A stretch of 64,000 bases of DNA from the NCBI RefSeq assembly GCF_014696385.1, contig NZ_JACJQB010000019.1, positions 1-64,000 on the forward strand, given 5' to 3'. This stretch comes from Pseudanabaena mucicola FACHB-723. GTDB taxonomy: Bacteria; Cyanobacteriota; Cyanobacteriia; Pseudanabaenales; Pseudanabaenaceae. The notes beneath the pieces are model-generated. The model had not been told where the DNA came from, made no database searches, and was given only the letters and a program-made list of their open reading frames with translations. Numbering within the stretch: the stretch's first letter is position 1; each line of letters begins with the position of its first letter. Positions 36,564 through 53,697 of the stretch are shown in pieces. A program made the position numbers and the translations under genes.

Positions 36564-38930
36564 ATGACGCTATTTAAACCTGCGATCGCACTGATGAATC
36601 GTTTGAAATATCCGCAGAAATTTTTTCTGATTAGTTTATTGTTTGTGTTGCCATTAGCGCTGGTGATGAATTTTCTGATCTCAGAGCTTGATAGTCGGAT
36701 TGAGTTTACCCAGAAAGAATCTTATGGCAATGCTTACTTGAAATCTATCAATCAGTTGTGGAAGTATGTTCCCCAGAGACAGTTACTTTTGCAGCGGCAA
36801 TTTTATAAAAATTCCCAGAAGTCTCAGACATCTTCACTTTCACCTGAAATAGATTCTTTACAGCAAAAAATTGAGCAGGAGTTTGAGAAACTGACAATAG
36901 TGGATCGTCAGCTTGGGAAAGAAATGCAGGCGACTCAAAAGTTAGAGGATGTCAAGCAGAAATGGCAAATTTTATTAGCGAGCAAAGAGTTTTTAGGTTT
37001 TCGTACCCATGACGCGGTACTTGATGAAATCAACTTATTTCGTCGCCATGTGGTTGATGTATCGAATCTAATCCTTGATCCAGATTTAGATACTTACTAC
37101 TTAATGGATGCGATCGCATTTAAATTGCCTGCCATGCAGGAGTTGTTGTACAAGGTGATGCAATCGGAGGCGGAGATTGTTTTTAAGCAGGAAATTCCTA
37201 ATGAAAAAAAGGCAGGCATGATTTCGCTAATTAGTTTGTTGAGTGGCTATAACGAAGACTTGTCTTTGAATATGGAACGAGCATTTCAAAATAACCCTCG
37301 CAACAATCTCCGTCAATCGCTAAGTATGCCGTTGCGTAATTTTAGAGTGCGCGTGAGTGAGATTAATTCCTATTCCAGTCAATTGGTGAGTCAGGGCAAT
37401 GACTTTTTTTTGAATGAGGCATCTTATCAGCAAGAGATGGAAAGCACCTTGGCGGATAGCTTTATACTCTGGCAAAAGTTATCGAACCATCTTGATGAGT
37501 TATTGCTGGAGCGTGTGCAAGGCTTTAAGGATCGCAAGCAATTTATTGTGAATTTTGTTGCTGTGGTCATGGCAATTATTATTTATCTATTTATTGGTTT
37601 TTATTTGTCGGTGATGCGAACTGTACAGCAGTTGGACATAGCAGCGCGACAAATGACATCGGGTGGCGAAATGTCGTTGCGACTAGATAGCAAAGATGAA
37701 CTGTCGATGGTGGTGCGCTCATTTAATAGTGTTGCGATCGCATTAAAGGATTCGGAAACTAAATATCGGGAGATTTTTGAGAATTCAGTGGATGGTATTT
37801 TCCAAACGACAATAGATGGCAAATACATTAGTGTGAATCGTGCCTTGGCACGGATTTATGGCTATGAATCAGTTGAGCAGATGTTGATGGCGATTGTCGA
37901 TGTATCTTCGCAGCTCTATGTTGACCCCAATCGGCGGCGACAGTTTCAGGATTTGATGGAAGCTAATGATACGATTACTGGCTTTGAATCACAGGTTTAT
38001 CGGCGCGATCGCAGTACGATTTGGATTAGTGAAAATGTCCGTGCCTTGAGGAATGAGCAAGGACAGCTACTCTATTATGAAGGCACGGTTGAGGATATCA
38101 GTCAGCGCAAGCTTGCCGAGCTACAACTGGAACAGGCTAATCAACAGATTTTGGCGCTGAATGAACGACTCAAACAGGAGAATATGCGAATGAGCAGCGA
38201 GCTAGAGGTGACCCGCAAGCTCCAAAAGATGATTTTGCCGAAGGATAAGGAATTGGCAATGATCACTGGTTTAGATATTTCAGGGTTTATGGAACCTGCG
38301 GCGGAGGTGGGTGGAGACTATTATGATGTATTGCAACAGAATGGAAGGATTAAAATCGGGATTGGCGATGTAACGGGGCATGGTTTGGAAAGTGGGATGT
38401 TGATGATCATGGTGCAGACAGCGGTGCGGACACTTTTACAAAATGAAGAGACTGATCCTGTGCGGTTTCTTGATACGCTCAACCGTACTATTTATGGCAA
38501 TGTTCAACGGATGTCATCGGATAAAAACTTGACGCTATCGTTGATTGATTATGAAAAAGGAAGGATTACCCTCAGTGGTCAGCATGAGGAGATGATCGTG
38601 GTGCGAAAAGATGGCACTTTAGAACGATTTGATACGGTTGATTTAGGTTTTCCCATTGGACTAGAGGAAGAAATTGAGGAATTTTTATCCCATAAGCATA
38701 TTCATCTTGATGCGGGGGATGTGGTCGTTTTATATACGGATGGAATTACGGAAGCTGAGAATGAATCACGTCAGCTCTATGGTGTGGATCGGCTTTGTGA
38801 GGTGGTTTGTCAACATGTCCATGAGTCGGCGCTCGCAATTCGTCATGCGGTGATTGAGGATCTGCGATCGCATATTGGTACTCAAAAAATCTATGACGAT
38901 ATTACTTTGTTGATACTCAAGCAAAAATAG
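36564..38930 (+). CDS. Membrane PP2C-type (SpoIIE) phosphatase with HAMP and PAS domains
   Basis: A 788-residue sensor phosphatase. Spans at about 20-42 and 327-349 bound a roughly 280-residue external region. Then come HAMP (about 350-395), a PAS domain (about 396-515; YREIFENSVDGIFQTTIDGKY), a coiled coil, and a SpoIIE/PP2C domain (about 560-788). Metal-binding Asp residues are in GGDYYDV, GDVTGHG and YTDGITEAEN. Proteins of this class dephosphorylate STAS-domain anti-anti-sigma-type proteins. The gene converges on the exopolysaccharide operon, with only 14 bases between the stops. The first gene of that operon has a STAS domain. Confidence 0.92.
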   Translation: MTLFKPAIALMNRLKYPQKFFLISLLFVLPLALVMNFLISELDSRIEFTQKESYGNAYLKSINQLWKYVPQRQLLLQRQFYKNSQKSQTSSLSPEIDSLQQKIEQEFEKLTIVDRQLGKEMQATQKLEDVKQKWQILLASKEFLGFRTHDAVLDEINLFRRHVVDVSNLILDPDLDTYYLMDAIAFKLPAMQELLYKVMQSEAEIVFKQEIPNEKKAGMISLISLLSGYNEDLSLNMERAFQNNPRNNLRQSLSMPLRNFRVRVSEINSYSSQLVSQGNDFFLNEASYQQEMESTLADSFILWQKLSNHLDELLLERVQGFKDRKQFIVNFVAVVMAIIIYLFIGFYLSVMRTVQQLDIAARQMTSGGEMSLRLDSKDELSMVVRSFNSVAIALKDSETKYREIFENSVDGIFQTTIDGKYISVNRALARIYGYESVEQMLMAIVDVSSQLYVDPNRRRQFQDLMEANDTITGFESQVYRRDRSTIWISENVRALRNEQGQLLYYEGTVEDISQRKLAELQLEQANQQILALNERLKQENMRMSSELEVTRKLQKMILPKDKELAMITGLDISGFMEPAAEVGGDYYDVLQQNGRIKIGIGDVTGHGLESGMLMIMVQTAVRTLLQNEETDPVRFLDTLNRTIYGNVQRMSSDKNLTLSLIDYEKGRITLSGQHEEMIVVRKDGTLERFDTVDLGFPIGLEEEIEEFLSHKHIHLDAGDVVVLYTDGITEAENESRQLYGVDRLCEVVCQHVHESALAIRHAVIEDLRSHIGTQKIYDDITLLILKQK

Positions 38931-38944
38931 ATTAATCGTGAGAT

Positions 38945-39964
38945 TTATTTTTGACTTTTTGCGATCGCATTGCTTTGACTTTTACCTGCGAGTTTCAGGG
39001 CAAAATTTTCAATGCTGTTATATAAGCTTCTTGGTAGTATGCCCATGAGATAGGCAGCACAAATCGTGAGGAGCGAACGCTGTGGCTCGTAAATTAAAAT
39101 TTTCCAATTAGTGACTAAAGCTCGATTAATTAGTTGTATAGCTGCCTTACCATCCTTATTCCGAATGGCACGACGAGCAAGATAGCGATATTGATAGGCG
39201 CGAGCGAGGGATTCCCATTTCGCTAATAGTTGAGGTGCATAGGTGCGGGTTTTGGCGATCACCCTTTCCCATGACTCTAGTTGCTTGGTCATATTCGCGG
39301 AGAGACTGCCAGAATTAACACGATAAAGGGTTAGCGGCTCGGGGATACCTTCAATTTGCCAATTGGTTTGAATTGCGATTCTAATCCAGCATTCAATATC
39401 TTCAGATTGACGGAATTGATCATCAAAATAGAAGTCTTCCACTTCACCATAGAGATTATCTTGGAACTTGATTCCCTCCAATGCTTCATGGCGAATCACT
39501 GGTGCAGAACCATTGCCGATCGGGTTACGACAGAGCAGATGGGGGGCATCAATTCCCGTTAGTTTAGGCATTTGATAAGTACCGAGGGAATTGCTATTTT
39601 CATCAATAAATTCAGAGCGACTAAAGCTTATCCCTACTTGCGGACGGGATTCTAAATGGGCGATATGTTTTTCGAGCTTTTGGGGATGCCAAAGATCATC
39701 ACTATCAAGGAGGGCAATATATTCCCCTTGAGCATGACGAATACCTGTATTTCTAGCACCTGCTAAACCTCGATTTTGTTGACGGATAATCTTGATGCGC
39801 GGATCTTGAAATTGTTGGCAGATCTCGATGCTGCGATCGGGAGATTGATCGTCAACGATGATTAATTCAAAATCTGTAAAAGTTTGTGCCAAGACGGATG
39901 CAATCGTTTCTTGAATAAACTGCTCTACATTGTAAACGGGAACAATTACGGATACTTTGGGCAT
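38945..39964 (-). CDS. Glycosyltransferase family 2
   Basis: A 339-residue inverting GT-A enzyme: VSVIVPVYNVEQFIQETIASVLAQTF at the start, DFELIIVDDQSPD, GLAGARNTGI and the nucleotide-sugar motif ALLDSDDLW (about residues 88-96). The C-terminal 100 residues are basic and helical, with a hydrophobic piece ICAAYLMGIL. It is the last gene of the exopolysaccharide operon, 42 bases after the flippase gene, and probably adds one sugar of the repeat unit. Its specificity is unknown. Confidence 0.92.
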   Translation of the reverse strand: MPKVSVIVPVYNVEQFIQETIASVLAQTFTDFELIIVDDQSPDRSIEICQQFQDPRIKIIRQQNRGLAGARNTGIRHAQGEYIALLDSDDLWHPQKLEKHIAHLESRPQVGISFSRSEFIDENSNSLGTYQMPKLTGIDAPHLLCRNPIGNGSAPVIRHEALEGIKFQDNLYGEVEDFYFDDQFRQSEDIECWIRIAIQTNWQIEGIPEPLTLYRVNSGSLSANMTKQLESWERVIAKTRTYAPQLLAKWESLARAYQYRYLARRAIRNKDGKAAIQLINRALVTNWKILIYEPQRSLLTICAAYLMGILPRSLYNSIENFALKLAGKSQSNAIAKSQK

Positions 39965-40006: not shown

Positions 40007-41287
40007 TTATGTTTGTTCTTGCAAATTTGGCGCTGTAATATAATTTTTCACCCAACTTACAAATAGCGGTATGGCTACCCAATGGGTAATCATGACGGCA
40101 GCGGCGACACCGATGATTTGCCAAATTGTGCCGATCCAAATTGCGATCGCAAAGACCACTGTAAACAGCACATTCCATCGCAAATCCCAGTTAGGTTTAT
40201 TCATTGCCCAGAGTGCTTTAGAGGCAGCATTGGCATAGGGTCGAGGAACTGCCGACAGACAAATTAAAATTAATAGGGGAATGGCAGGAATCCATTTTTG
40301 CCCAAAGACTAACGGAACATAAATCGGCGCAAGTAGCACCTGTGCCGAAACAATGGGAAGAATCACTTTCGTGATCGTGGCAAAACTAGTGAGATATCGC
40401 TCTCGAAATTGGGCTGGCTCACTTCTAGCTTCGCAAAGATGGGGATAAAGAGCCGCATCGACAGCAGTAATAAAGCTAAGACTGATACCTAGTCCTGCAT
40501 TGAAGGCAAAGTAATATAAACCAAGGGCTTTAATACCCAATAAATGTCCTGCGATTAAATAGTCGAGATTATTGCGAAGGGTGGCTAACATTTGGATACC
40601 AAGAATGCTACGTCCAAAATGAATGATTTCTTGCCAACGATGCAGCGTAAAGGCTTTTGTCGATCGCCAAGGATTATTGGTGCGATGCACAATCACCCAA
40701 ATCGGCGCAACAATCACCTTTGGCAAAACAATTGCCCACATCCCAAAACCTTGCCATGCCAAAATCATCGTCAAAATATTATCGGTAGAAATCTGCAAGG
40801 CGTTGGCTAGGGCTGAAACATGGAGGCGATTTTCCCTTTGCGATCGCGCCGCCTGAATTAAACCCATCGGCAACATCAAATAGACTAATCCCATCGCACA
40901 GATCGGCAAAATTACCTGCGTGTCTTTGTAAATCCATGACATCGGCAAAGCAATTAGCGATTGAATCAAAAACAAGCCACCGCAGATAAACCAGTTGATG
41001 TAGTAGGCAGTTTGCGATAACTCTTCAATATCCTCTTCCTTCGCCTGAATCAACTTATCGAAAATACCATTGCGGGTAAATACATTCACAAACTCATTGG
41101 TGGTTAGTACCAATGCCGCCAGTCCATAGTCATATTCCGATAACCATCGCGCTAGTACCACCGTGGCGGCAAGCCTTGAAATCCGAATGAGCATCTCGGA
41201 CAAGCCCAACCAACCAACGTTGCGGGCAAACCGATTGGCGAGTTTGCTTTTCACAAAGTCAATGGCAGAGAAAATTATTTTTTGCAT
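40007..41287 (-). CDS. wzx: Wzx-like polysaccharide flippase (PST family)
   Basis: A 426-residue integral membrane protein with about 12 spans, of the polysaccharide-transporter type. The start contains FARNVGWLGLSEMLIRISRLAATVVLARWLSEYDYGLAALV, the conserved N-terminal Wzx region. It would move lipid-linked repeat units across the plasma membrane. The start overlaps the upstream glycosyltransferase stop by 13 bases. It completes the Wzx/Wzy set with the Wzy-like gene. Confidence 0.9.
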   Translation of the reverse strand: MQKIIFSAIDFVKSKLANRFARNVGWLGLSEMLIRISRLAATVVLARWLSEYDYGLAALVLTTNEFVNVFTRNGIFDKLIQAKEEDIEELSQTAYYINWFICGGLFLIQSLIALPMSWIYKDTQVILPICAMGLVYLMLPMGLIQAARSQRENRLHVSALANALQISTDNILTMILAWQGFGMWAIVLPKVIVAPIWVIVHRTNNPWRSTKAFTLHRWQEIIHFGRSILGIQMLATLRNNLDYLIAGHLLGIKALGLYYFAFNAGLGISLSFITAVDAALYPHLCEARSEPAQFRERYLTSFATITKVILPIVSAQVLLAPIYVPLVFGQKWIPAIPLLILICLSAVPRPYANAASKALWAMNKPNWDLRWNVLFTVVFAIAIWIGTIWQIIGVAAAVMITHWVAIPLFVSWVKNYITAPNLQEQT

Positions 41288-42288
41288 AGATCAAACAGCA
41301 GAGCCTCCCATGCCGCCATGTACTCTTCCCACGCATCCTGTACATCGTTACGACCATGTAGCCCCAAGGTTTCTAATTGCGATCGCGGCATCATGTAAAC
41401 TTTCTCAATTGCGCTAGCTAAAGCGGTTGGGTCATGGGCAGGAACCACAATTCCACAATCATGCACCTGTTCAGGTAAGCCATCCACCTTCGAGACGATT
41501 ACGGCTTTTGCTGCTGCCTTCGCTTCTAGACAAACATTACCCCAAGGTTCCCAATTGGAAGGAATCACAACCACATCACATTTCTCTAGAAACGATGGTA
41601 CATCAGTAATTGAACCTAAAAATTGAATGCGTGGATCGTTGCCAGCCAAGGATTTGAGCAATTCTTCCTGCTCTCCATAACCACCAATCAGCAACTGCAC
41701 TTCAGGATTACGCACTGTTTGCATAGCTCTAAGGAGCGTATCAAAGCCCTTTTGTTGGTTAAATCTGCCATAGGCTCCTAACACTAACGGGGTATCTAGT
41801 GGTTTCAAGGGCAATATTAAAAATTCATCTAAAGTGCGACATTGGGTGATCATCGTCAATTTTTTAGAATTGACCAGCTTTTGCGATCGCATCCATTTTC
41901 TTTGTCCTTGCGAAATTGCCACAACCCTATGGGCAAGACCATAGGCAAACCTTAGCATCCAATGAAACCGCCACTGCGATCGAACTTTCCATTTTTCAAA
42001 GCTCTCAGAATAATGATGCTCATGGATTAATAATTTGCTGCTCATGCGTAATCGCCACAGACGTATTAGCGATCGCCAAGAGCAGGGATCATGCCAGATA
42101 ATGACATCAGGCTTGATCTCTGCCAAAGATGCCAGCGCTTCAGTTTCGGAGAGAAAGAGAAACTCAAATTTGTCCTTAAGTTGCGAATTAGTCAGGCTAC
42201 TACTAGTGCTTTTAATGCCCCCAACATTGCGATCGCTCAGCAAATGCAAAATCTTCGGCTTTCTGACTGTGAAATCAATATTTGTCAT
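41275..42288 (-). CDS. Glycosyltransferase family 4
   Basis: A 337-residue GT-B retaining enzyme. The C-terminal domain has LVLGAYGRFNQQKGFDTLLRAM, VQLLIGGYGEQEELL, IQFLGSITDVPSFLEKCDVVVIPSNWEPWGNVCLEAKAAAKAVIVSKVDGLPEQV, with the E-x7-E nucleotide-sugar motif. The N-terminal acceptor part is shorter than usual. The gene is coupled to the Wzy-like gene (ATGA, 42285-42288) and overlaps wzx. It likely adds one sugar to the lipid-linked repeat. Confidence 0.92.
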   Translation of the reverse strand: MTNIDFTVRKPKILHLLSDRNVGGIKSTSSSLTNSQLKDKFEFLFLSETEALASLAEIKPDVIIWHDPCSWRSLIRLWRLRMSSKLLIHEHHYSESFEKWKVRSQWRFHWMLRFAYGLAHRVVAISQGQRKWMRSQKLVNSKKLTMITQCRTLDEFLILPLKPLDTPLVLGAYGRFNQQKGFDTLLRAMQTVRNPEVQLLIGGYGEQEELLKSLAGNDPRIQFLGSITDVPSFLEKCDVVVIPSNWEPWGNVCLEAKAAAKAVIVSKVDGLPEQVHDCGIVVPAHDPTALASAIEKVYMMPRSQLETLGLHGRNDVQDAWEEYMAAWEALLFDLCKK

Positions 42289-43661
42289 GATCTAATCTCA
42301 TCCTTCATTTCATTGTTCATCGTCTCAACTACTTCCACTGTTAAAATTGGTGTAGTTTCAGACTTGTCCCGATCTGTTACTTCCAAAAATCCTATGCCGA
42401 TCGCAATTAGTCCCGGCCAGTATAAATAAGCAAGAATTTCCAGATTTTCGCCAAAAGTATACAGAAAAATCACCAGTATCATCGTTAAGCCCAATTTTGC
42501 CGTATCGCTACGTTGGGATTTAATTAGCAAATCAACAAAGCTATAGATCATCGGAATTGCTAAAGCTACAAAACCTACTATCCCTTTGACAAAGAGCAAA
42601 CCATACCAAGTATGGTGTGAACCGATCGGCATGTATTCCACCATATGTGGACCACTCTCGACGATGCCATGTCCCCAAATCGGTGCTTCTGTTTGCCAAC
42701 GGTAAATCGCAATGCGCCCCAGAGCTGCACGGACTCGCGAAGAATCTTTTCGCGCCGCCGCAAACTGTTCCGAAAATTTTTCTAAACCCTCTAGCGCCAT
42801 CGGCAAAGTCACTCCCCCCGTACTCGCAATTACCCCCGTAATCATCAATGAAAGTGGTCGAGAAATGCGTGATAGCAGTTCTACTAAAATCCAAACAACG
42901 GGTAAGCAGAGTAATGCTAAGCGTGATTTAGAAATTTGGCACATCATGATACAACCTGCAATGCCGAGATATTTCCATTTCTTGCAAGGCTCGCGCAAAA
43001 TCATAAAAAAGTAGATATTTGCCACAAACCCCAACGCAGGAGCCCAAGGCGTGAACAATCGCCAGCGGGGTGTATTGTCCCCTGGGTCAATCTCATAGAG
43101 GCGGAATTCAAAAAATTCTGGTCCTGGCCCCCCAATCGCTTGTAATGGTGAAACAAATAATTTTTCGGGCAGTTTGGCATAGTATGCAGCGATGAAGATC
43201 GGTGAGAACAAAAATACCATCGCGCAAATCAACGCTGCGGCTCGATACATCAATTTAGGTCGAATTGGTAAACAACCCGCTAGCGGGAATAAAGCTAAGA
43301 TCGCCCATCCCTTTGCCCAGCCAATCGAAGATTTAATAATCTGTCCCATATCTAAGTAATAGTCCAGATGTCCCACAACTAAGGACACCTGCATCATCAC
43401 CATGCCCCCAATCCACATCCAGACCCCAACAGGAATACGAAGGCGTTCCCTAATCGGGGTATGCGGCGTTTGTTGCCACCATCGCCAACAGAGACAACCA
43501 CATAAAATCCAAGGCAAAACTGCGCCTAAGACATACAAGCCACCAATGAAATAAATTGCAAAAGTCCAGACAATCGAATACCACACCAGTTTTTCTTCAA
43601 AATTTTCTGGGGTAATGCGGAACTGCTCAGGGGTCTGCAAAAATTTTGGTAGCTTAATCAT
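42285..43661 (-). CDS. O-antigen ligase/Wzy-like polymerase
   Basis: A 458-residue membrane protein with about 10-12 spans. A long external loop after the middle (about 290-345) contains RVRAALGRIAIYRWQTEAPIWGHGIVESGPHMVEYMPIGSHHTWYGLLFVKGIVGF. The HHTWYGLL piece fits the conserved Wzy_C (O-antigen ligase/polymerase) H-x-x-Y/W region. It probably polymerises repeat units in the periplasm. Its 3' end overlaps the GT4 start by four bases. A tandem 16-bp repeat lies just before its start. Confidence 0.85.
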   Translation of the reverse strand: MIKLPKFLQTPEQFRITPENFEEKLVWYSIVWTFAIYFIGGLYVLGAVLPWILCGCLCWRWWQQTPHTPIRERLRIPVGVWMWIGGMVMMQVSLVVGHLDYYLDMGQIIKSSIGWAKGWAILALFPLAGCLPIRPKLMYRAAALICAMVFLFSPIFIAAYYAKLPEKLFVSPLQAIGGPGPEFFEFRLYEIDPGDNTPRWRLFTPWAPALGFVANIYFFMILREPCKKWKYLGIAGCIMMCQISKSRLALLCLPVVWILVELLSRISRPLSLMITGVIASTGGVTLPMALEGLEKFSEQFAAARKDSSRVRAALGRIAIYRWQTEAPIWGHGIVESGPHMVEYMPIGSHHTWYGLLFVKGIVGFVALAIPMIYSFVDLLIKSQRSDTAKLGLTMILVIFLYTFGENLEILAYLYWPGLIAIGIGFLEVTDRDKSETTPILTVEVVETMNNEMKDEIRS

Positions 43662-43662
43662 G

Positions 43663-43712
43663 GTTATCCCGATTTACTATTAGCCCGTTTTACTATTAGC
43701 CCGTTTTACTGC
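43663..43712. repeat. Three imperfect 16-bp tandem units at the wzz stop
   Basis: On the minus strand AGTAAAACGGGCTAAT appears twice in a row and AGTAAATCGGGATAAC follows as a degenerate third unit. The first unit contains the end of wzz (S-K-T-G-stop). The later two fill the 34-base gap before the Wzy-like start. This looks like slippage duplication of the gene end. Confidence 0.65.
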
Positions 43713-45168
43713 GATCGCTACTAGGGATAGCCCGCAGCGTCGTTACTTCGGCAATGTCATTACGATCTCCTGAGACTTTTACACCTTGATTCTTCGACTG
43801 GCGCTTCCATAGCAAAAAAGCACCGACGGAGACAAATAGGGAACCGATAAAAGCACCTGCTAAGACTAACTTTGGCTGAGGCGAAGCAGGCTCCTCGGCT
43901 AGGCTTGGCGGTGACACTAGTTGAGCGAGCGGATAGGCGGTAAAAATATCAGATTTGCTGAGGTCAATTTTGGCAAGGGAGGAGGCAAATACGGCTTCGG
44001 CAACTTGAGCATCCCTTTGCAGGCGATCTAGTTCTAGTTGTTTTTGGGTTAAGTCACGGAGGCGATTATCGAAATTCTCGATCTGACGGCTAATTTCCTC
44101 AGCTTGTCCTGCGATGCCGCTTTGTTCCGCTTGCACCGCCACTAAATCTCGATAGAGGCTTTCTTTACCTGCACTGCCCGTTGTGTTCAAATTTAGTCTC
44201 GCTAATTCTTGTAAATTGGGACGACGCTTTAGCAAAAAACTGGCGCGGGCGGTGACGGCTAAACTGGCATTTTTTTGCCTAGCGGCTTCTTTGACTACAT
44301 TAGGATGATTTTCGCCCCACTTAGAACTTAAAACCGTTAAAGTTGCGGATGAGTCACTATAATCTCTGAGATTTTGCTGATAAATGGGATCGGATTGCAG
44401 CGTGAAAGCATCACTGGCTTCATTCACGTCTAAGCCTAAATTATTTGATAATTGCTGAAGACGGTCACGCAACAAGATGTCTTGCGCTAGCATTTCTGCC
44501 CTTTGTTTTCTGAGTTGCTCTAAACTGATCGCCACTTCTTTAACTTGATCGCTGGTACTCAGTCCCGATCTGCTCTTATAGGTGGCAAGTTTTTGTTGTG
44601 TCTCTGCCAACTTAATTTTCGCCATGTCAAGGGTTGTCTGTGTACCATCATCCCGTCGCGCAATTTCATCGGCACGCAGTTTATTTACTTTTTCCATTAA
44701 TGTCTCATGAAGGGCAAAGCCACGCTCTTGGGCAGCCTTAGCGCTTGGGCCTTCAATTTCCACTTGTAAAATTGACGTATTATCAATCAGTTTACTTTTG
44801 GGTTTGCCTAGTTCTGAGGTTTTAATATTGAGGGATTTGGCAGCTTCTTCTAATACAGGATCATCAGTGAGAATATATTGATAATTTGCCCTTGGGTCGA
44901 GGGATGAGCCGCCCGAAGCGGAGGAGCTAGAGGAAGAAGCTTGACCAATGCTCGGTAAATTGACATTTGCACCCACATTGCCCCCTGGCAAAATAATTGC
45001 CATGCGGCTGACATATTTGGGTTTGGCGGTTTTTAGGTACATGATTGCCCCACCCCAGATCACACCATTCAGAACTATTCCTATTAACAAATAAGCCAAC
45101 CATCCCCGATTTTGCGATCGCATCGGTGGTTCTAGCTCAATGCTTTCTAGGTTAAGTTCTTTGGTCAT
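43696..45168 (-). CDS. Wzz/Wzc-like chain-length determinant without kinase domain
   Basis: A 490-residue protein. One span lies at about 25-47 (AYLLIGIVLNGVIWGGAIMYL), another near the C-terminus at about 438-458 (LVLAGAFIGSLFVSVGAFLLW). Between them are an external region with a Ser-rich loop (about 78-90) and coiled coils (about 180-290 and 335-400). This is the polysaccharide copolymerase pattern that sets polymer length. No Walker-A tyrosine-kinase part is attached and no BY-kinase gene is in this operon. Its start overlaps the wza stop as ATGA. Confidence 0.88.
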   Translation of the reverse strand: MTKELNLESIELEPPMRSQNRGWLAYLLIGIVLNGVIWGGAIMYLKTAKPKYVSRMAIILPGGNVGANVNLPSIGQASSSSSSASGGSSLDPRANYQYILTDDPVLEEAAKSLNIKTSELGKPKSKLIDNTSILQVEIEGPSAKAAQERGFALHETLMEKVNKLRADEIARRDDGTQTTLDMAKIKLAETQQKLATYKSRSGLSTSDQVKEVAISLEQLRKQRAEMLAQDILLRDRLQQLSNNLGLDVNEASDAFTLQSDPIYQQNLRDYSDSSATLTVLSSKWGENHPNVVKEAARQKNASLAVTARASFLLKRRPNLQELARLNLNTTGSAGKESLYRDLVAVQAEQSGIAGQAEEISRQIENFDNRLRDLTQKQLELDRLQRDAQVAEAVFASSLAKIDLSKSDIFTAYPLAQLVSPPSLAEEPASPQPKLVLAGAFIGSLFVSVGAFLLWKRQSKNQGVKVSGDRNDIAEVTTLRAIPSSDRSKTG

Positions 45169-46256
45169 TGATTACTCCCACCAAAAATATCGCGAATTAA
45201 TTTAATGGGATTGAGAATATCGCCGATAAAGCCCAACACATCGCGCACTTCCGTCACCGTGGAGTCATAGCAAGCAATGCTATCCTGTGGCATCAAAAAT
45301 GGATTGGTGGGCTGATCCTTGGAATTGCGAACTAAATCCTCGACGGCGCGATCAATGGCAAAGGTTTCGCCTGTGGCGCGATCTGTACGAATGAGAACAG
45401 CACGGCGGGGAGTATTGGTGGGAGTAGTGCCACCAACACAGTTAGCGGCAAATACAGCCTGTGAAAAACGAGAACCATAGGGAAAACCTGTGGAGTCTTT
45501 GTTAATGCCTGACTGCGAATTACTATCCGCAGGTTTGGATAAGTTGGAGATAAAAACCGTAATACCGGGAGGCGTAATTTGCGAAGGGCGGACAATGCGA
45601 GGATCGATCGTCTCGCGTTTAGGAACAATGATGATATCACCTGCAACCAATGGCAGATCTTCGACGGGTTCGCCTGTGAAAACTCCTAATAGATCAACGG
45701 TTAATTTTTGATCTTGACGAATTACGGTGATTTGGGTGACATCGGCAGTCGGCGTGACTCCACCTGCACCACGTAAGGCTGTAGTCAGAAAGCGATCAGG
45801 AGCATAGTCTCCCGATGATTGGGTAAGCTGCTGAGCGCGGACTTCGGCGCTACGATTGTTGATGAGGACGCGCCCCGTCTGGAAGGTTTCGCCTGAGACA
45901 TTAACGGCAACGGGAGCTAGGGCTAATGGGGTGACGGAGACTTGAAGAAATTGCGGTTGGAAATACTTTTGCTTGATGAGTTGTGTTTTGATCAGGGATT
46001 GAACATCAGCGATTTCTAAGCCAACGACAGGTAGGGGGGCAAGATACGGAATAGTAATTGTGCCATCGGTGTTGACTTCATATACGCCGTTAAAGAGTTC
46101 GCCTTCGGGAATTAGGAGCCGAATCCGATCGCCAGGGGATAAAGGTAAGGCGTTGACAGGTTGATGATTAGGAATTGCGATCGCAACAATTGTAAGGATC
46201 GTCACTCCCCAAAACTTATCCGCTATTTTGCGTTTGAGATCGCTAGACTGCACCAT
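45165..46256 (-). CDS. Wza-like polysaccharide export protein with SLBB domains
   Basis: A 363-residue exported protein. The signal-like stretch FWGVTILTIVAIAIPNHQPVNA precedes the Poly_export domain LPLSPGDRIRLLIPEGELFNGVYEVNTDGTITIPYLAPLPVVGLEIADVQ, which is diagnostic. SLBB-type domains follow (VNVSGETFQTGRVLI, about 130-220). It would form the outer-membrane channel for polymer export. The ATG at 46256 is taken instead of the TTG at 46268; it lies inside the end of the fusion gene, a 14-base overlap. Confidence 0.9.
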   Translation of the reverse strand: MVQSSDLKRKIADKFWGVTILTIVAIAIPNHQPVNALPLSPGDRIRLLIPEGELFNGVYEVNTDGTITIPYLAPLPVVGLEIADVQSLIKTQLIKQKYFQPQFLQVSVTPLALAPVAVNVSGETFQTGRVLINNRSAEVRAQQLTQSSGDYAPDRFLTTALRGAGGVTPTADVTQITVIRQDQKLTVDLLGVFTGEPVEDLPLVAGDIIIVPKRETIDPRIVRPSQITPPGITVFISNLSKPADSNSQSGINKDSTGFPYGSRFSQAVFAANCVGGTTPTNTPRRAVLIRTDRATGETFAIDRAVEDLVRNSKDQPTNPFLMPQDSIACYDSTVTEVRDVLGFIGDILNPIKLIRDIFGGSNQ

Positions 46257-48396
46257 TATCTCGTTCAAATAAAATTGCCACGGTTCGCCAGATTAGCCAT
46301 AGATCATATTTTAGACTCCACTTTCGTTTATAGGTGAGATCAAATCCCATCACTTCCTCAAAACTACGTACCGTCGAGCGTCCACTCACCTGCCAAACAC
46401 CACTCAACCCCGGCTTAACATCTAAACGACTCCACTCAGTCATTTTTTCATCGGTATATTCATTTTCTAGCTCATAGAGTCCCACTTCACCAAAGGTGGG
46501 GGGTCTAGTACCAATCAGACTCATATCCCCTGACAGAATATTCCAAAACTGAGGAAACTCATCCAAACTCGTTTTACGCAGAAATTTGCCCACTTTGGTG
46601 ATCCGTGGATCGTTACTATTTTTAAAAAACTTACCACTATCATCCTTGTTTGGTGTGCCATCAGCGGCGTTGGCGATCTCATTGGTTACTTTTTGCTTCA
46701 GGGCTTCCGCATTTTTCACCATAGAGCGAAATTTCCAGATCCCAAAGGGTTTACTCATCAGCCCTGCGCGTCTTTGTTTAAACAAAATTGGGCCACGACT
46801 CTCTAATTTAATTGCGATCGCAATCGGAATAAATAAAATTGCCGTGAAGCTCAAACCAACTAGAGCACCAGCAATATCCAGCAGTCGCTTGGGAAAACTC
46901 CGCACCGATGGATGCAATGGCAAAGTCGGATCTAACTCGATCGCAGGATAGAAAAAATACATCACATAGGCGAATGCACAAATTACAGGTATACGTCTCA
47001 GCGTCTGATAGGTACGGTATAGAGCCTTAGCGAGGCGCGATACTTGGTCATTATTTGACTGAATACTACGACGGGGCGATCGGTGCGTATTCGTAGCTAC
47101 TTCAATATTAAAAACTTGATCGAGATTAGTCATTTTTAAAATCGATACCACCTGTGGATTAACACTCCACAGCACTAATTCCGTCGGTTCTTCCTTACCA
47201 GCCTGAATGTCCGCTTGACGCAACATCTTTAAGCAGGAAACTAAAGCCCCAACTCCTGAACTATCCATAAATTCAGTCTGCGACATATCTAAAATAATCT
47301 TCCGAAAACTTTCTTCCTCTTGGCACAACTGTCCAAAATCTTCCTTAAGAGTGCGTGCTTCAGGATTGAAAATATTTCTGGGTGTACTGATTAACACTGT
47401 GTCATGGAAGTTAGTGATTTTGACATTTCTCAATCCCATTTGGATAGAGTTAGTAGCTTGCCCCGTAGGAATATAGACAGCTTCAGGATATTGCCGCGCA
47501 ATTTCCTCCGCCCTCACAATCAAAAGATCGAGAGCTTTGCACGATCGCAATAATTTTGCCGATAGGCTCAAATCACGGAGACGGGTCTTGGACTCCACAA
47601 AGATCACTTTGCTTTTACATAGATACTTGGCAATCACTAAAAAGGGAACCGCCACCCCTGCCCCCGTTGACAGCACAATTTGTGGACGCTCCTGTTTGAT
47701 CACCCACATGGCAAGCAAGAGATTTCGCACCAAATTAGGGAGATGGCGATTGGTGGGACTATGCGCCCAAAGCGCCTTTTCGCCACTTAATTCCGCTTGG
47801 GTTGTCCCTGTTTTGAAAGTAATCCAAGTACGTTGAGGAATCGTTTGCCAATATTCCCGAAATCCTTGCATTCCTTTGAAATGTCCGCCCGAAGAGCAAA
47901 CCAGCAATAGCTTTTGATAGTCTTGGCTAGGATAGCGAGCCTGTAAATATTCACATAATGGCGTATCCTTCCCAAACTCAAGGGATGCACGGGGCATCGT
48001 GATTAATTTGAGGAACTTCACTAAATCCGCAGGTGAACGTGCAATCGCCACCCCCTGATTTTCTAGATCCTCTGCCATTTCCAGTTGATGATCATCTACA
48101 TGTTCATGGAATTTAACTGTCCGTGGCACTAAGATATAAGGCTTGTCAAATTCTTCTAGTAGCAGAGCAGAGCCTTCGCCACAGTGGGCAATGATTGCGT
48201 TGGCTTGCTCAACGGTACGTTTAAAAATAGCTTCGGGAATAACTTTATTAACTTTGACGTTATCAGGCAGACGGGTTGATGAGCCATATTGAATCGTCAC
48301 TTCTTCGTCGATTATGCCCTCATTAATCAACAAATTCACCCAATCCATCAGGGCATCAAAGGGATACTGCTCAGTACCAACCGTAACAAGTATCAT
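46243..48396 (-). CDS. Four-module fusion: Alg13-like, Alg14-like, STAS, polyprenyl-phosphate sugar transferase
   Basis: A 717-residue protein, ATG at 48396 (GTG at 48405 is possible). Residue numbers count from the ATG minus 3 of the longer form. Module 1 (about 1-145) begins MILVTVGTEQYPFDALMDW and has IAHCGEGSALLLEEF, like Alg13/PssE. Module 2 (about 165-320) begins LLLVCSSGGHFKGMQGF and has LSTGAGVAVPFLVIAK, like Alg14/PssD. Module 3 (about 332-445) is a STAS domain with MDSSGVGALVSCL, the phospho-acceptor DSSG. Module 4 (about 505-717) is a WbaP/WcaJ/EpsL-type initiating transferase with RLLDIAGALVGL, GPILFKQRRAG, KFRSM, KTSLDEFPQFWNIL and GTRPPT. It heads the EPS operon and could add the first two sugars to the lipid carrier. 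Confidence 0.9.
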   Translation of the reverse strand: MILVTVGTEQYPFDALMDWVNLLINEGIIDEEVTIQYGSSTRLPDNVKVNKVIPEAIFKRTVEQANAIIAHCGEGSALLLEEFDKPYILVPRTVKFHEHVDDHQLEMAEDLENQGVAIARSPADLVKFLKLITMPRASLEFGKDTPLCEYLQARYPSQDYQKLLLVCSSGGHFKGMQGFREYWQTIPQRTWITFKTGTTQAELSGEKALWAHSPTNRHLPNLVRNLLLAMWVIKQERPQIVLSTGAGVAVPFLVIAKYLCKSKVIFVESKTRLRDLSLSAKLLRSCKALDLLIVRAEEIARQYPEAVYIPTGQATNSIQMGLRNVKITNFHDTVLISTPRNIFNPEARTLKEDFGQLCQEEESFRKIILDMSQTEFMDSSGVGALVSCLKMLRQADIQAGKEEPTELVLWSVNPQVVSILKMTNLDQVFNIEVATNTHRSPRRSIQSNNDQVSRLAKALYRTYQTLRRIPVICAFAYVMYFFYPAIELDPTLPLHPSVRSFPKRLLDIAGALVGLSFTAILFIPIAIAIKLESRGPILFKQRRAGLMSKPFGIWKFRSMVKNAEALKQKVTNEIANAADGTPNKDDSGKFFKNSNDPRITKVGKFLRKTSLDEFPQFWNILSGDMSLIGTRPPTFGEVGLYELENEYTDEKMTEWSRLDVKPGLSGVWQVSGRSTVRSFEEVMGFDLTYKRKWSLKYDLWLIWRTVAILFERDNGAV

Positions 48397-51866: not shown

Positions 51867-52181
51867 TTAGGAAGTCGCCATGCTCTGCGACGAATTAATT
51901 GCCAACGCATCGGAGATATAGCAAACTCCCCCAAATTTCTTAGTGACGGGTTTCAGCTTGTCCACCAATAGCTTGGTTTTGTCCTCTAAAAAGAAAGCGA
52001 TGACATAATCATTTTCCAGCATACTCATGTCGAGATCGCCTGAATTAGTACCGCTTACCCCTTTACCAACCACATTACGAATTACGGTGTAATTCAAAAC
52101 GCCGACACTCTCTAAAACCTTGATGATTTTGTGGGATTCGACCGAATCCGACACAATTTCGATTCTTTTGACCGCTTGCAT
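51867..52181 (-). CDS. sbtB: SbtB, PII-like regulator of bicarbonate uptake
   Basis: A 104-residue PII-superfamily protein. It starts AVKRIEIVSDSVESHKIIKVLESVGVLNYTVIRNVVGKG (T-loop start) and has DYVIAFFLEDKTKLLVDKLKPVTKKFGGVCYISDALAI. SbtB binds cAMP and adenine nucleotides and controls SbtA, the Na+/HCO3- symporter. Here it lies 40 bases downstream of sbtA, the expected order. It lacks the C-terminal Cys-Gly-Pro-Glu-Gly-Cys R-loop of Synechocystis SbtB, ending in a Ser-rich tail. Confidence 0.9.
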   Translation of the reverse strand: MQAVKRIEIVSDSVESHKIIKVLESVGVLNYTVIRNVVGKGVSGTNSGDLDMSMLENDYVIAFFLEDKTKLLVDKLKPVTKKFGGVCYISDALAINSSQSMATS

Positions 52182-52221
52182 AATCTTATCTCTCTTAAAT
52201 TTGACTGAAAAGATCTCGAAT

Positions 52222-53208
52222 CTATACCCAAAACAAATTGATCACATACAAATACAAAGGAATGCCAATGATGATATTGAATGGGAAAGTAATCGCTAGA
52301 GCTGTCGAGACATAGAGGCTAGGATTTGCTTCTGGTACTGTCAAACGCATGGCAGCAGGCACGGCAATATAGGAAGCACTCGCGCATAGCACCGCAAACA
52401 GCAACGCATCACCCTGTGACATCGAAATTAATTTTGCGATCGCAATGCCCACACCCGAATTTAAGATCGGCATTAGCACCGCAAAAGCGATTAAGAACAC
52501 ACCAGTTTTTTGGAGATCCTTAATTCTTTTTGCTGCAACCAATCCCATATCTAGCAAAAAGAAGGTCAGCACGCCATAAAACAAATCCTGCGTAAAGGGT
52601 GACAACACATGCCAGCCCCTCTCGCCAGTCAAGCACCCAATGATTAAACTGCCGACTAATAAGAATACGGAACTATTCAAAAAAGCCTCTCGCAAGACCT
52701 CTCCCCACGCAAATTCGCGGGTTTCACCCTTAGCAGCCTTGTCGGCGGCAGTAAATAGACTCACGAGGATCAATCCCACAATAATCGCAGGGGACTCCAT
52801 CAGCGCAAGGGCTGCCACCATGTAGCCATCAAAGGCAATCCCTAGTTGACTCAAAAAGGAGCTAGCTGTAATGAAGGTGACGGCACTAATCGAGCCATAG
52901 GTGGCGGCGATCGCCGCCGCATTATAAGAGTCCAGCTTAATCTTGAGAATAAAAAATGAGTAAACAGGCACAATACAAGCCATCAGCACGGCGGCTGCCA
53001 TGGTCAGAACCACTTCCTGACTAATGCCGCTTTTGACGAGTTCAACGCCACCCTTAAACCCGATCGCCAGTAGTAAGTAAAGAGAAAATAGTTTGGGGAT
53101 TGGCGGTGGAATTTCTAAATCTGATTTAATCAGTACCGCAATCATGCCCAGAAAAAAGAACAGGATTGGCGGGTTAAGAACATTAGAGACAATTAGGTCT
53201 AAATCCAT
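52222..53208 (-). CDS. sbtA: Sodium-dependent bicarbonate transporter SbtA
   Basis: High-affinity Na+-dependent HCO3- transporter of the plasma membrane, part of the CO2-concentrating mechanism. The start is MDLDLIVSNVLNPPILFFFLGMIAVLI and there are about ten spans in two inverted halves, with ATYGSISAVTFITASSFL and ALCASASYIAVPAAMRLTVPEA as the family's conserved membrane segments. The ATG at 53208 is chosen; the frame opens 65 codons earlier with no homologous content. At 328 residues it is shorter than Synechocystis SbtA, mainly in the central loop. Confidence 0.93.
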   Translation of the reverse strand: MDLDLIVSNVLNPPILFFFLGMIAVLIKSDLEIPPPIPKLFSLYLLLAIGFKGGVELVKSGISQEVVLTMAAAVLMACIVPVYSFFILKIKLDSYNAAAIAATYGSISAVTFITASSFLSQLGIAFDGYMVAALALMESPAIIVGLILVSLFTAADKAAKGETREFAWGEVLREAFLNSSVFLLVGSLIIGCLTGERGWHVLSPFTQDLFYGVLTFFLLDMGLVAAKRIKDLQKTGVFLIAFAVLMPILNSGVGIAIAKLISMSQGDALLFAVLCASASYIAVPAAMRLTVPEANPSLYVSTALAITFPFNIIIGIPLYLYVINLFWV

Positions 53209-53697
53209 TGGGACTGATCCACGTAAAAGATTTTTGAGAAAACAATTCGATACTTGATGACAGTCTACAGAATTGTATGGCGATCGCCATCGGAAATGCG
53301 TTATTGGAAACACAACGCAAAGAGTTGTGTGCAAACCGAGAAAAACTTCAAGCCTCAATCGGCTATAACATATAGCAAAGTATAGTTTTTGGGAGAATAT
53401 CAAATCGAATTTATTGGATGGTTTAGCGATCGCCGATCTTGAAGATGCCCTAAAACTCAGCCGTGAAAAATCGCAATCGGAAGTTGGGGCATGGCTACTC
53501 CAAAAATATAGCCATCATCAATAAAAGTCTGTCTCAAAGGGACTAACTTTGAGGATATCCAAAAGTTTAGATAAGTATTTGAAAGCAAACGCTATACTAT
53601 GGTTAAACGTTAAGCTGCATATTATTTACTGATTAGTTGCCTAGCCACTTTCTCAGCGAATACATACTACCCCTTACAAACATTCATAGTTGGAAAA
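53209..53697. other. Divergent control region of sbtA and cpp1-like gene
   Basis: This 489-base stretch separates sbtA (minus) from the cpp1-like gene (plus). It includes one weak small ORF at 53414-53524 (listed) and presumably the carbon-responsive promoter of sbtA. I do not see a clear hairpin or riboswitch. Confidence 0.5.
53414..53524 (+). CDS. Possible small protein, 36 residues, weak
   Basis: A frame from TTG at 53414 to TAA at 53522-53524 reads LLDGLAIADLEDALKLSREK and ends in WLLQKYSHHQ, a plausible amphipathic helix. It has no ATG and no clear ribosome-binding site, and it lies in the sbtA leader region on the opposite strand. It may be a remnant or chance frame. Confidence 0.25.
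   Translation: MDGLAIADLEDALKLSREKSQSEVGAWLLQKYSHHQ

Follow-up and report, generated by a model that had tools for sequence, protein, structure and literature searches.

Can a single protein load the carrier lipid of an exopolysaccharide (EPS) with its first sugar, add the second sugar and be switched by phosphorylation? The question is raised by one gene of Pseudanabaena mucicola FACHB-723, located in a 64,000-nucleotide stretch of DNA (contig NZ_JACJQB010000019.1, positions 1 to 64,000 of the forward strand; hereafter the window). In the open reading frame (ORF) analysis of the window the gene lies on the minus strand, with its ATG at 48396 and its stop at 46243, and encodes 717 amino acids (aa); frame 1 of the plus strand over 46243-48396 contains many stops and no open frame. 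The initial annotation had recognised four modules in this protein, and Pfam recovered all of them, each over its cut-off. Our reading, to which we give a probability of roughly 0.6, is that the gene encodes a bifunctional enzyme initiating a Wzx/Wzy-type EPS, the entry step of which is gated by STAS partner switching. This is supported by the modules, their motifs and fold matches, the short linkers that separate STAS and phosphoglycosyl transferase (PGT) domains in relatives, a conserved acceptor residue and the linkage of kinase genes in relatives. The gene and its parts are as follows.

46243-48396, minus strand: Alg13-Alg14-STAS-PGT fusion, whole gene, 717 aa (ORF, Pfam, NCBIfam, copies in the genus)
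47983-48396, minus strand: module 1, residues 1-138, Alg13/PssE-like C-terminal half of a GT-B glycosyltransferase, donor side (PF04101, PssE, VIA, motifs HCGEGS and DDHQ)
47464-47913, minus strand: module 2, residues 162-311, Alg14/PssD-like N-terminal GT-B half (PF08660, PssD, VIA, SSGGH loop)
47092-47433, minus strand: module 3, residues 322-435, STAS domain of the SpoIIAA/RsbV type (PF01740, VIA)
47260-47262, minus strand: Ser379 codon, predicted phospho-acceptor within D378-S379-S380-G381 (DSSG site, alignment of relatives)
46261-46920, minus strand: module 4, residues 493-712, monotopic PGT core (PF02397, WbaP alignment, VIA)
46801-46896, minus strand: residues 501-532, the most hydrophobic helix, read as a reentrant membrane helix (hydrophobicity, model)
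46558-46563, minus strand: Asp612-Glu613 codons, predicted position of the catalytic dyad (D and E in 105/105 proteins)

Starting from the N terminus, Glyco_tran_28_C matched residues 1-138 (E 1.1e-7) and Alg14 residues 221-309 (E 1.1e-12), both above the Pfam gathering score, followed by STAS at residues 332-432 (PF01740, E 1e-12, 48.2 bits against a cut-off of 22.6) and Bac_transf at residues 503-710 (PF02397, E 1.5e-60, 204 bits against 27). The Alg13 half stands before the Alg14 half, which is a permuted GT-B order. As the initial annotation had suggested, the two halves resemble PssE and PssD: the NCBIfam models matched residues 2-121 (3.2e-23) and 164-308 (3.8e-23), at 82.3 and 82.5 bits, both under the curated equivalog cut-offs of 120 and 110, respectively. 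We assign them to the PssE/PssD-like split GT-B pairs by the HxGxG(S/T) and SSGGH-type motifs of both halves, motifs that presumably function as in MurG and Alg13. The strongest NCBIfam match of this glycosyltransferase (GT) module was to WelK (4.2e-31), the beta-1,4-glucuronosyltransferase of sphingans, whose positions 169-299 align to fusion residues 2-129. WelK also carries both GT-B halves in one chain, but the order in the fusion is permuted and the match is under cut-off. Known PssE/PssD pairs (EpsF/EpsE, Alg13/Alg14) likewise consist of the two split halves and extend a lipid-linked first sugar; the fusion differs from them in being one chain with reversed halves, joined to a STAS-PGT protein, and in scoring below the curated cut-offs. 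The Alg13-Alg14 fusions of Entamoeba and Dictyostelium likewise have reversed halves and lack the transmembrane segment that most eukaryotic Alg14 proteins carry; they are eukaryotic N-glycan enzymes, and the available part of their description mentions neither STAS nor PGT (PMC8993221).

The EPS_sugtrans, WcaJ and WbaP models of NCBIfam all matched the transferase module under their curated cut-offs, and D612-E613 of the fusion pairs in the alignment with the WbaP dyad, which we take to be catalytic in monotopic PGTs. It is to the monotopic PGTs that the Bac_transf core, the Asp-Glu dyad and the hydrophobic helix, with its predicted reentrance, assign the module, and the WbaP-type identity initially proposed for it agrees with the alignment and with the fold match given below. 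Two features of large PGTs (WbaP/WcaJ type) are missing: the PF13727 domain of unknown function (DUF), for which Pfam gave no match up to E 1, and the four-helix bundle before the core, the only hydrophobic segment over threshold other than helix 501-532 being residues 238-256, inside the Alg14 fold. By the domains fused to its PGT core the protein belongs to the bifunctional PGT (Bi-PGT) class, already named (PMC10942596), with a second activity that is predicted. Fold, profile and the acceptor Ser379 make module 3 a STAS domain of the SpoIIAA/RsbV type, and the DSSG site that had been noted is intact at residues 378-381. The domain is not a single-domain anti-anti-sigma factor, being part of a 717-aa enzyme, and the ant_ant_sig score of the fusion is 45 bits against a cut-off of 53.45 (NCBIfam).

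In the structure model of the window protein (mean pLDDT 80.1, pTM 0.53), VIA matched residues 1-172 to C-terminal GT-B halves (YjiC, Z 12.6), residues 161-312 to the N-terminal domain of MurG (Z 14.8), residues 322-435 to STAS proteins (TM1442, Z 15.7, SpoIIAA and RsbV; best rows Z 14-16) and residues 493-712 to WbaP and PglC (Z 19.2), with the VIA-align list barely testing the parts of the model outside residues 159-312 and 322-435. In 94 non-fusion ORFs (duplicates kept) the STAS and PGT matches lie 2-31 residues apart, a gap too short for a membrane span with its linkers, so the STAS domain should lie on the cytosolic side together with the active site. The stretch 469-487 is moderately hydrophobic in the window's group of fusions (group 1, defined below); its counterpart in group 2 has charged residues, and we did not read it as a membrane span. 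Alignment A1 includes stray placements of partial rows.

How unusual is this combination of modules? Outside the genus, matches listed with at least 57 percent identity in open frames of at least 300 aa gave 76 transferase loci, some ending at contig ends, and STAS is fused to PGT in 72 of them (71 STAS-PGT proteins and one Alg13-STAS-PGT protein, L118). These 72 loci come from at least 64 of the 292 sampled genomes (65 with L117), in a scan that scored at most three candidates per genome. We refer below to 73 STAS-PGT loci, which include L117, with STAS and PGT in two frames, and exclude L189, L196 and L211, which had no STAS match. A STAS domain on an initiating transferase is in fact already known: Anabaena all4160 is described in a review as a glycosyltransferase with an N-terminal STAS domain (PMC8256260), and the heterocyst envelope polysaccharide depends on this gene, among others (PMC4390870). 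The 349-aa proteins of the L048 type are probably all4160 orthologues. The Synechocystis plasmid pSYSM also encodes a STAS-PGT protein, adjoining a NACHT gene, and from this position it is probably XssP, the priming glycosyltransferase of synechan, without which no bloom formed and EPS was suppressed (PMC8205485); the word 'STAS' is absent from the main text of that paper in its available part. As in the fusion, the STAS domain of all4160 and XssP lies directly N-terminal of a monotopic PGT, but both lack Alg13-Alg14 modules. The view that the four modules are normally encoded separately therefore gives way for STAS and PGT, whose fusion is common in cyanobacteria, and stands for the permuted Alg13-Alg14 pair, the unusual part, which we encountered, among the matches listed, solely in the window's genus and in similar records.

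The relatives also speak to how the STAS domain might be used. A gene for an RsbW-type (HATPase_c_2) kinase lies within ~4 kb at 32 of the 73 STAS-PGT loci and at 0 of 45 plain-PGT loci, these controls (L071-L115) coming from another collection, the best 80 loci, with flanks up to 6 kb and some shorter; among the 23 STAS-PGT loci matched to these controls in source and flank length (L048-L070) a kinase is present at eight. In 26 of the 73 it follows directly downstream on the same strand (gap <400 bases), and several overlap the transferase gene. On the tree, seven changes account for the presence of a kinase among 90 non-fusion rows, so the linkage is kept within clades. All 39 distinct kinases aligned, including one from the window's own genome, match HATPase_c_2 and have both E and N conserved in the N-box. 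On the STAS side, after removal of duplicate sequences (as for the tree and the alignment showing the DSSG site), the acceptor is Ser in 102 of 105 STAS-PGT proteins, with one Thr and two Gly, and in 36/36 kinase-linked proteins of the tree set; the Asp-Glu dyad of the transferase is kept in 105/105.

Further parts of a partner switch accompany the transferase in Nostocales, where clusters contain separate Alg14 and Alg13 genes, then STAS-PGT, kinase and stand-alone STAS genes, with a convergent PP2C gene in 5/6. The compact cluster L050:3285-7524 is of this kind, as are L051, L052, L054 and L062 (profiles were checked for L050), and its convergent phosphatase is a receiver-PP2C protein by profile. 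Among the 73 STAS-PGT loci as a whole, Alg13 is nearby or fused in 12 and Alg14 in nine, and a stand-alone STAS gene occurs at seven and a convergent PP2C gene at six. L117:4666-7783 holds a cluster of GT2, Alg14, Alg13, STAS, PGT and kinase, with STAS and PGT in two reading frames. On pSYSM no relative of the linked kinases was found (the plasmid was searched, the chromosome not covered). An acceptor-Ser STAS protein, an RsbW-like kinase and a PP2C phosphatase are likewise the components of the RsbV/RsbW, SypA/SypE, HmpU-W and SiaA-type switches, from which the present case differs in that the STAS domain sits within the effector enzyme itself, which is no transcription factor.

The same linkage could in principle carry information in the reverse direction: the enzyme, if abundant in the membrane, would titrate the kinase with its STAS domain, so that the status of EPS initiation feeds a sigma factor or a motility programme. 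The kinases do resemble anti-sigma factors, by RsbW matches that are weak and far under cut-off, and the Hmp-type cyanobacterial partner switch is tied to hormogonium development (PMC6495340). This direction of flow nevertheless seems to us quite improbable, since the kinase gene often lies directly behind the transferase gene and profile scans of a few neighbours recognised no gene for a sigma factor.

Full-length copies of the fusion without internal stops are present in 25 of 26 Pseudanabaena genomes, the sole exception being G310 (82% complete), and fall into two groups: group 1, that of the window (72-100% identity, full-length in 21/26), and a group 2 paralogue (48-51% identity, full-length in 22/26). 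The window's own genome encodes a group 2 paralogue on contig C61 (L002 / L119:1870-4011), and other group 2 homologues are L042-L047 and L137. When one genome per species was scanned, the top 12 among the best 80 loci were full fusions, eight from Pseudanabaena, one from Phormidium tenue and three from unnamed cyanobacteria, one of which alone (L047) is tied to the genus, by a match that recurs in genus genome G282; among the matches listed in the 292 phylum genomes, full-length ones occurred only in three genomes of this genus, and no Alg14 match lay within the transferase ORF at any of the 76 loci outside it. The copies in 25/26 genomes, together with the 12 records, refute the idea that separate genes were merged by an assembly or annotation error, which the initial annotation had kept as an alternative; nothing was found in its favour, though similar separate genes adjoin in Nostocales, and we consider it negligible. 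A 711-aa open frame in G175, outside the genus, was rejected as a four-module fusion: Alg14 and Alg13 are encoded there by two genes of their own, and STAS and PGT lie in two frames, a state compatible with both a split gene and a frame break, and its sequence was left unmended.

All 15 fusions fall into a single clade, with an SH-aLRT of 100, in a 111-row tree, although the method was quick and several long branches, the group 2 branch among them, were flagged. A single fusion event followed by duplication would be the simplest reading of this clade. The fusion could naturally have arisen from the separate Alg14 and Alg13 genes that precede STAS-PGT in Nostocales, although these stand in the opposite order, and the 473-aa Alg13-STAS-PGT protein of another cyanobacterium (L118:6638-8056, with a convergent kinase gene) has an intermediate architecture.

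Put together, the PGT module would load the carrier lipid with the first sugar, and the permuted Alg13-Alg14 pair would put the second sugar on the lipid-linked product, as expected of kin of EpsE/EpsF. The first two steps would thereby be tethered in one chain, with the PGT as membrane anchor. An RsbW-type serine kinase would bind the STAS domain and phosphorylate Ser379, gating the entry step of the chain; a PP2C phosphatase would undo the modification, and free STAS proteins might be competitors for kinase binding. The active form, if SypA and HmpV are a guide, would be the unphosphorylated one. In this genus the kinase would act in trans. For the window protein we infer the two activities, their order and the anchoring, as well as the phosphorylation of Ser379, its sign and the trans-acting kinase; control of a two-step chain through STAS phosphorylation, as proposed in the initial annotation, was a reasoned inference that the kinase linkage in relatives (32/73) has strengthened. 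PGTs are known control points (EpsW-EpsZ, CapM and the WbaP DUF among them; PMC12802240, PMC6441080, PMC10942596). EpsZ of Myxococcus and CapM of Staphylococcus are likewise initiating monotopic PGTs under phosphorylation-based post-translational control, but the regulator of EpsZ is a separate response regulator (PMC12802240) and CapM is controlled by tyrosine/threonine kinases acting on the PGT core (PMC6441080). More broadly, we rate at about even odds the proposal that cyanobacteria have wired a kinase-STAS-PP2C module into the transferase that commits the carrier lipid, and that in the window's genus one switch gates the first two steps.

Several findings weigh against gating of a two-step initiation enzyme by its STAS domain. 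Packing of STAS on the transferase was checked in two models, with pTM values of 0.53 for the window protein and 0.39 for the two-module STAS-PGT protein L050 (mean pLDDT 65.3). A linked kinase is absent at 41 of the 73 STAS-PGT loci, where the acceptor Ser is kept all the same, and a 33-row clade of mostly 349-aa proteins likewise has Ser and no linked kinase. The acceptor is replaced in three of eight group 2 fusions, by Thr (1) or Gly (2). With the precedent of WbaP-type PGTs, whose core is preceded by a DUF with regulatory and dimerising roles (PMC10942596), the missing kinases and replaced acceptors would fit a STAS domain that is a structural, dimerisation or nucleotide-sensing stand-in for the DUF of large PGTs, with no phospho-switch. 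We regard this alternative as possible though unlikely, given an acceptor that is Ser in nearly all the proteins, including every kinase-linked one, and a kinase linkage that the plain-PGT controls do not share.

Other findings speak against a linked switch in this genus. The window's own genome has 11 HATPase_c_2 matches, all of them on contigs other than the window's, and by the listed positions no such kinase gene adjoins a fusion in the genus genomes. The closest own-genome relative of the linked kinases is on contig C48 (L132:1122-3584), its gene directly behind UPF0047 and CofD genes. Although this kinase has relatives in 25 of the 26 genus genomes, none adjoins a fusion by the listed positions, which leaves it a candidate partner; the subfamily profile that ranked it was grown from the L117 kinase over fetched loci and took the C48 kinase in, and three other HATPase_c_2 genes of the own genome are over cut-off. 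As for the phosphatase, a PP2C gene (36564-38930) abuts the operon end 7.3 kb from the fusion and has a near full-length homologue in 19/26 genus genomes, own included. In the 16 others with both this PP2C and a group 1 fusion, the two are ~25 kb apart (G305, G311), ~189 kb apart (G296) or on another contig (13 genomes), so we rejected it as a conserved linked partner, adjacency to the fusion not being seen in other genus genomes (the drafts cannot exclude closeness in 13). It is weakly SiaA-like, at 56.6 bits against a cut-off of 700.

The second activity is weighed down by group 2, in which 8/8 proteins read HCDE in place of HCGEG and have GGY at the end of the SSGGH loop, while the transferase dyad is intact. 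The changed motifs suggest that the chain can be kept even when its GT module is no longer typical, and group 2 proteins may still start the polymer with a second module that is altered or inactive, possibly a pseudo-glycosyltransferase. The Alg13-Alg14 pair might then have been fused merely for co-expression or localisation, adding a later sugar or being inactive, with no hand-off between the two modules. We think this rather improbable for the window protein, because GT motifs, acceptor Ser and dyad are all intact in 7/7 aligned group 1 proteins, EpsE/EpsF, homologues of the pair, attach the second sugar onto lipid-linked glucose (PMC8993221), and separate Alg14 and Alg13 genes precede STAS-PGT in Nostocales. 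A last point concerns the analogy with SypA, which is reported to influence biofilm at a level below transcription, through a target described as unknown (PMC10120452); contrary to this, a review says that SypA initiates transcription (PMC8256260).

If the proposed switch holds, the initiating transferase would itself be a partner-switch client, and so a candidate kind of target for SypA- or HmpV-like STAS proteins, the effector of HmpV being described as undefined (PMC6495340). It would also suggest what stand-alone STAS regulators of polysaccharides with unknown targets might act on. Envelope pathways share a limited supply of nucleotide sugars and polyprenyl phosphate, which makes the gating of initiation an open question (PMC12802240), and a STAS switch inside the initiating enzyme, with a kinase gene adjoining in many species, is directly testable. 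The architecture had been thought undescribed; a STAS-PGT arrangement is in print for all4160, whereas neither the four-module chain nor the kinase linkage was met in our literature search, which covered open-licence papers, so that their absence from print is weakly supported.

As had been proposed, the fusion heads an EPS operon, being the first gene of a nearly gapless run of seven minus-strand genes. Scans for promoters and terminators gave site counts no higher than in shuffled sequence. The remaining genes of the run and the convergent phosphatase gene are as follows.

45165-46268, minus strand: Wza-like export protein (Poly_export, Pfam), second gene of the operon; listed ORF with a TTG start, overlapping the fusion end
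43696-45168, minus strand: chain-length/co-polymerase protein with two hydrophobic segments (GNVR match under cut-off)
42285-43661, minus strand: polytopic protein with seven hydrophobic segments and no Pfam match, candidate Wzy polymerase
41275-42288, minus strand: group 1 glycosyltransferase (Glyco_trans_1_4, Pfam)
40007-41287, minus strand: flippase (Polysacc_synt_3, Pfam), candidate Wzx
38945-39964, minus strand: family 2 glycosyltransferase (Pfam), last gene of the operon
36564-38930, plus strand: convergent PAS-SpoIIE (PP2C) phosphatase, 788 aa, candidate STAS phosphatase; two hydrophobic segments, HAMP match under threshold

With the polytopic protein taken as Wzy the set would be complete for a Wzx/Wzy-type pathway, with a repeat unit of perhaps four sugars. 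The gene order from the fusion to the family 2 transferase recurs in one genus-mate (L136) with one gene inserted; the inserted gene (L136:4025-5848) has weak asparagine synthase and glutamine amidotransferase matches, and the operon is otherwise collinear. Elsewhere in the window, at 51867-53403, a P-II-like gene adjoins an Sbt_1 bicarbonate transporter gene, a pair that we take to be SbtB-SbtA.

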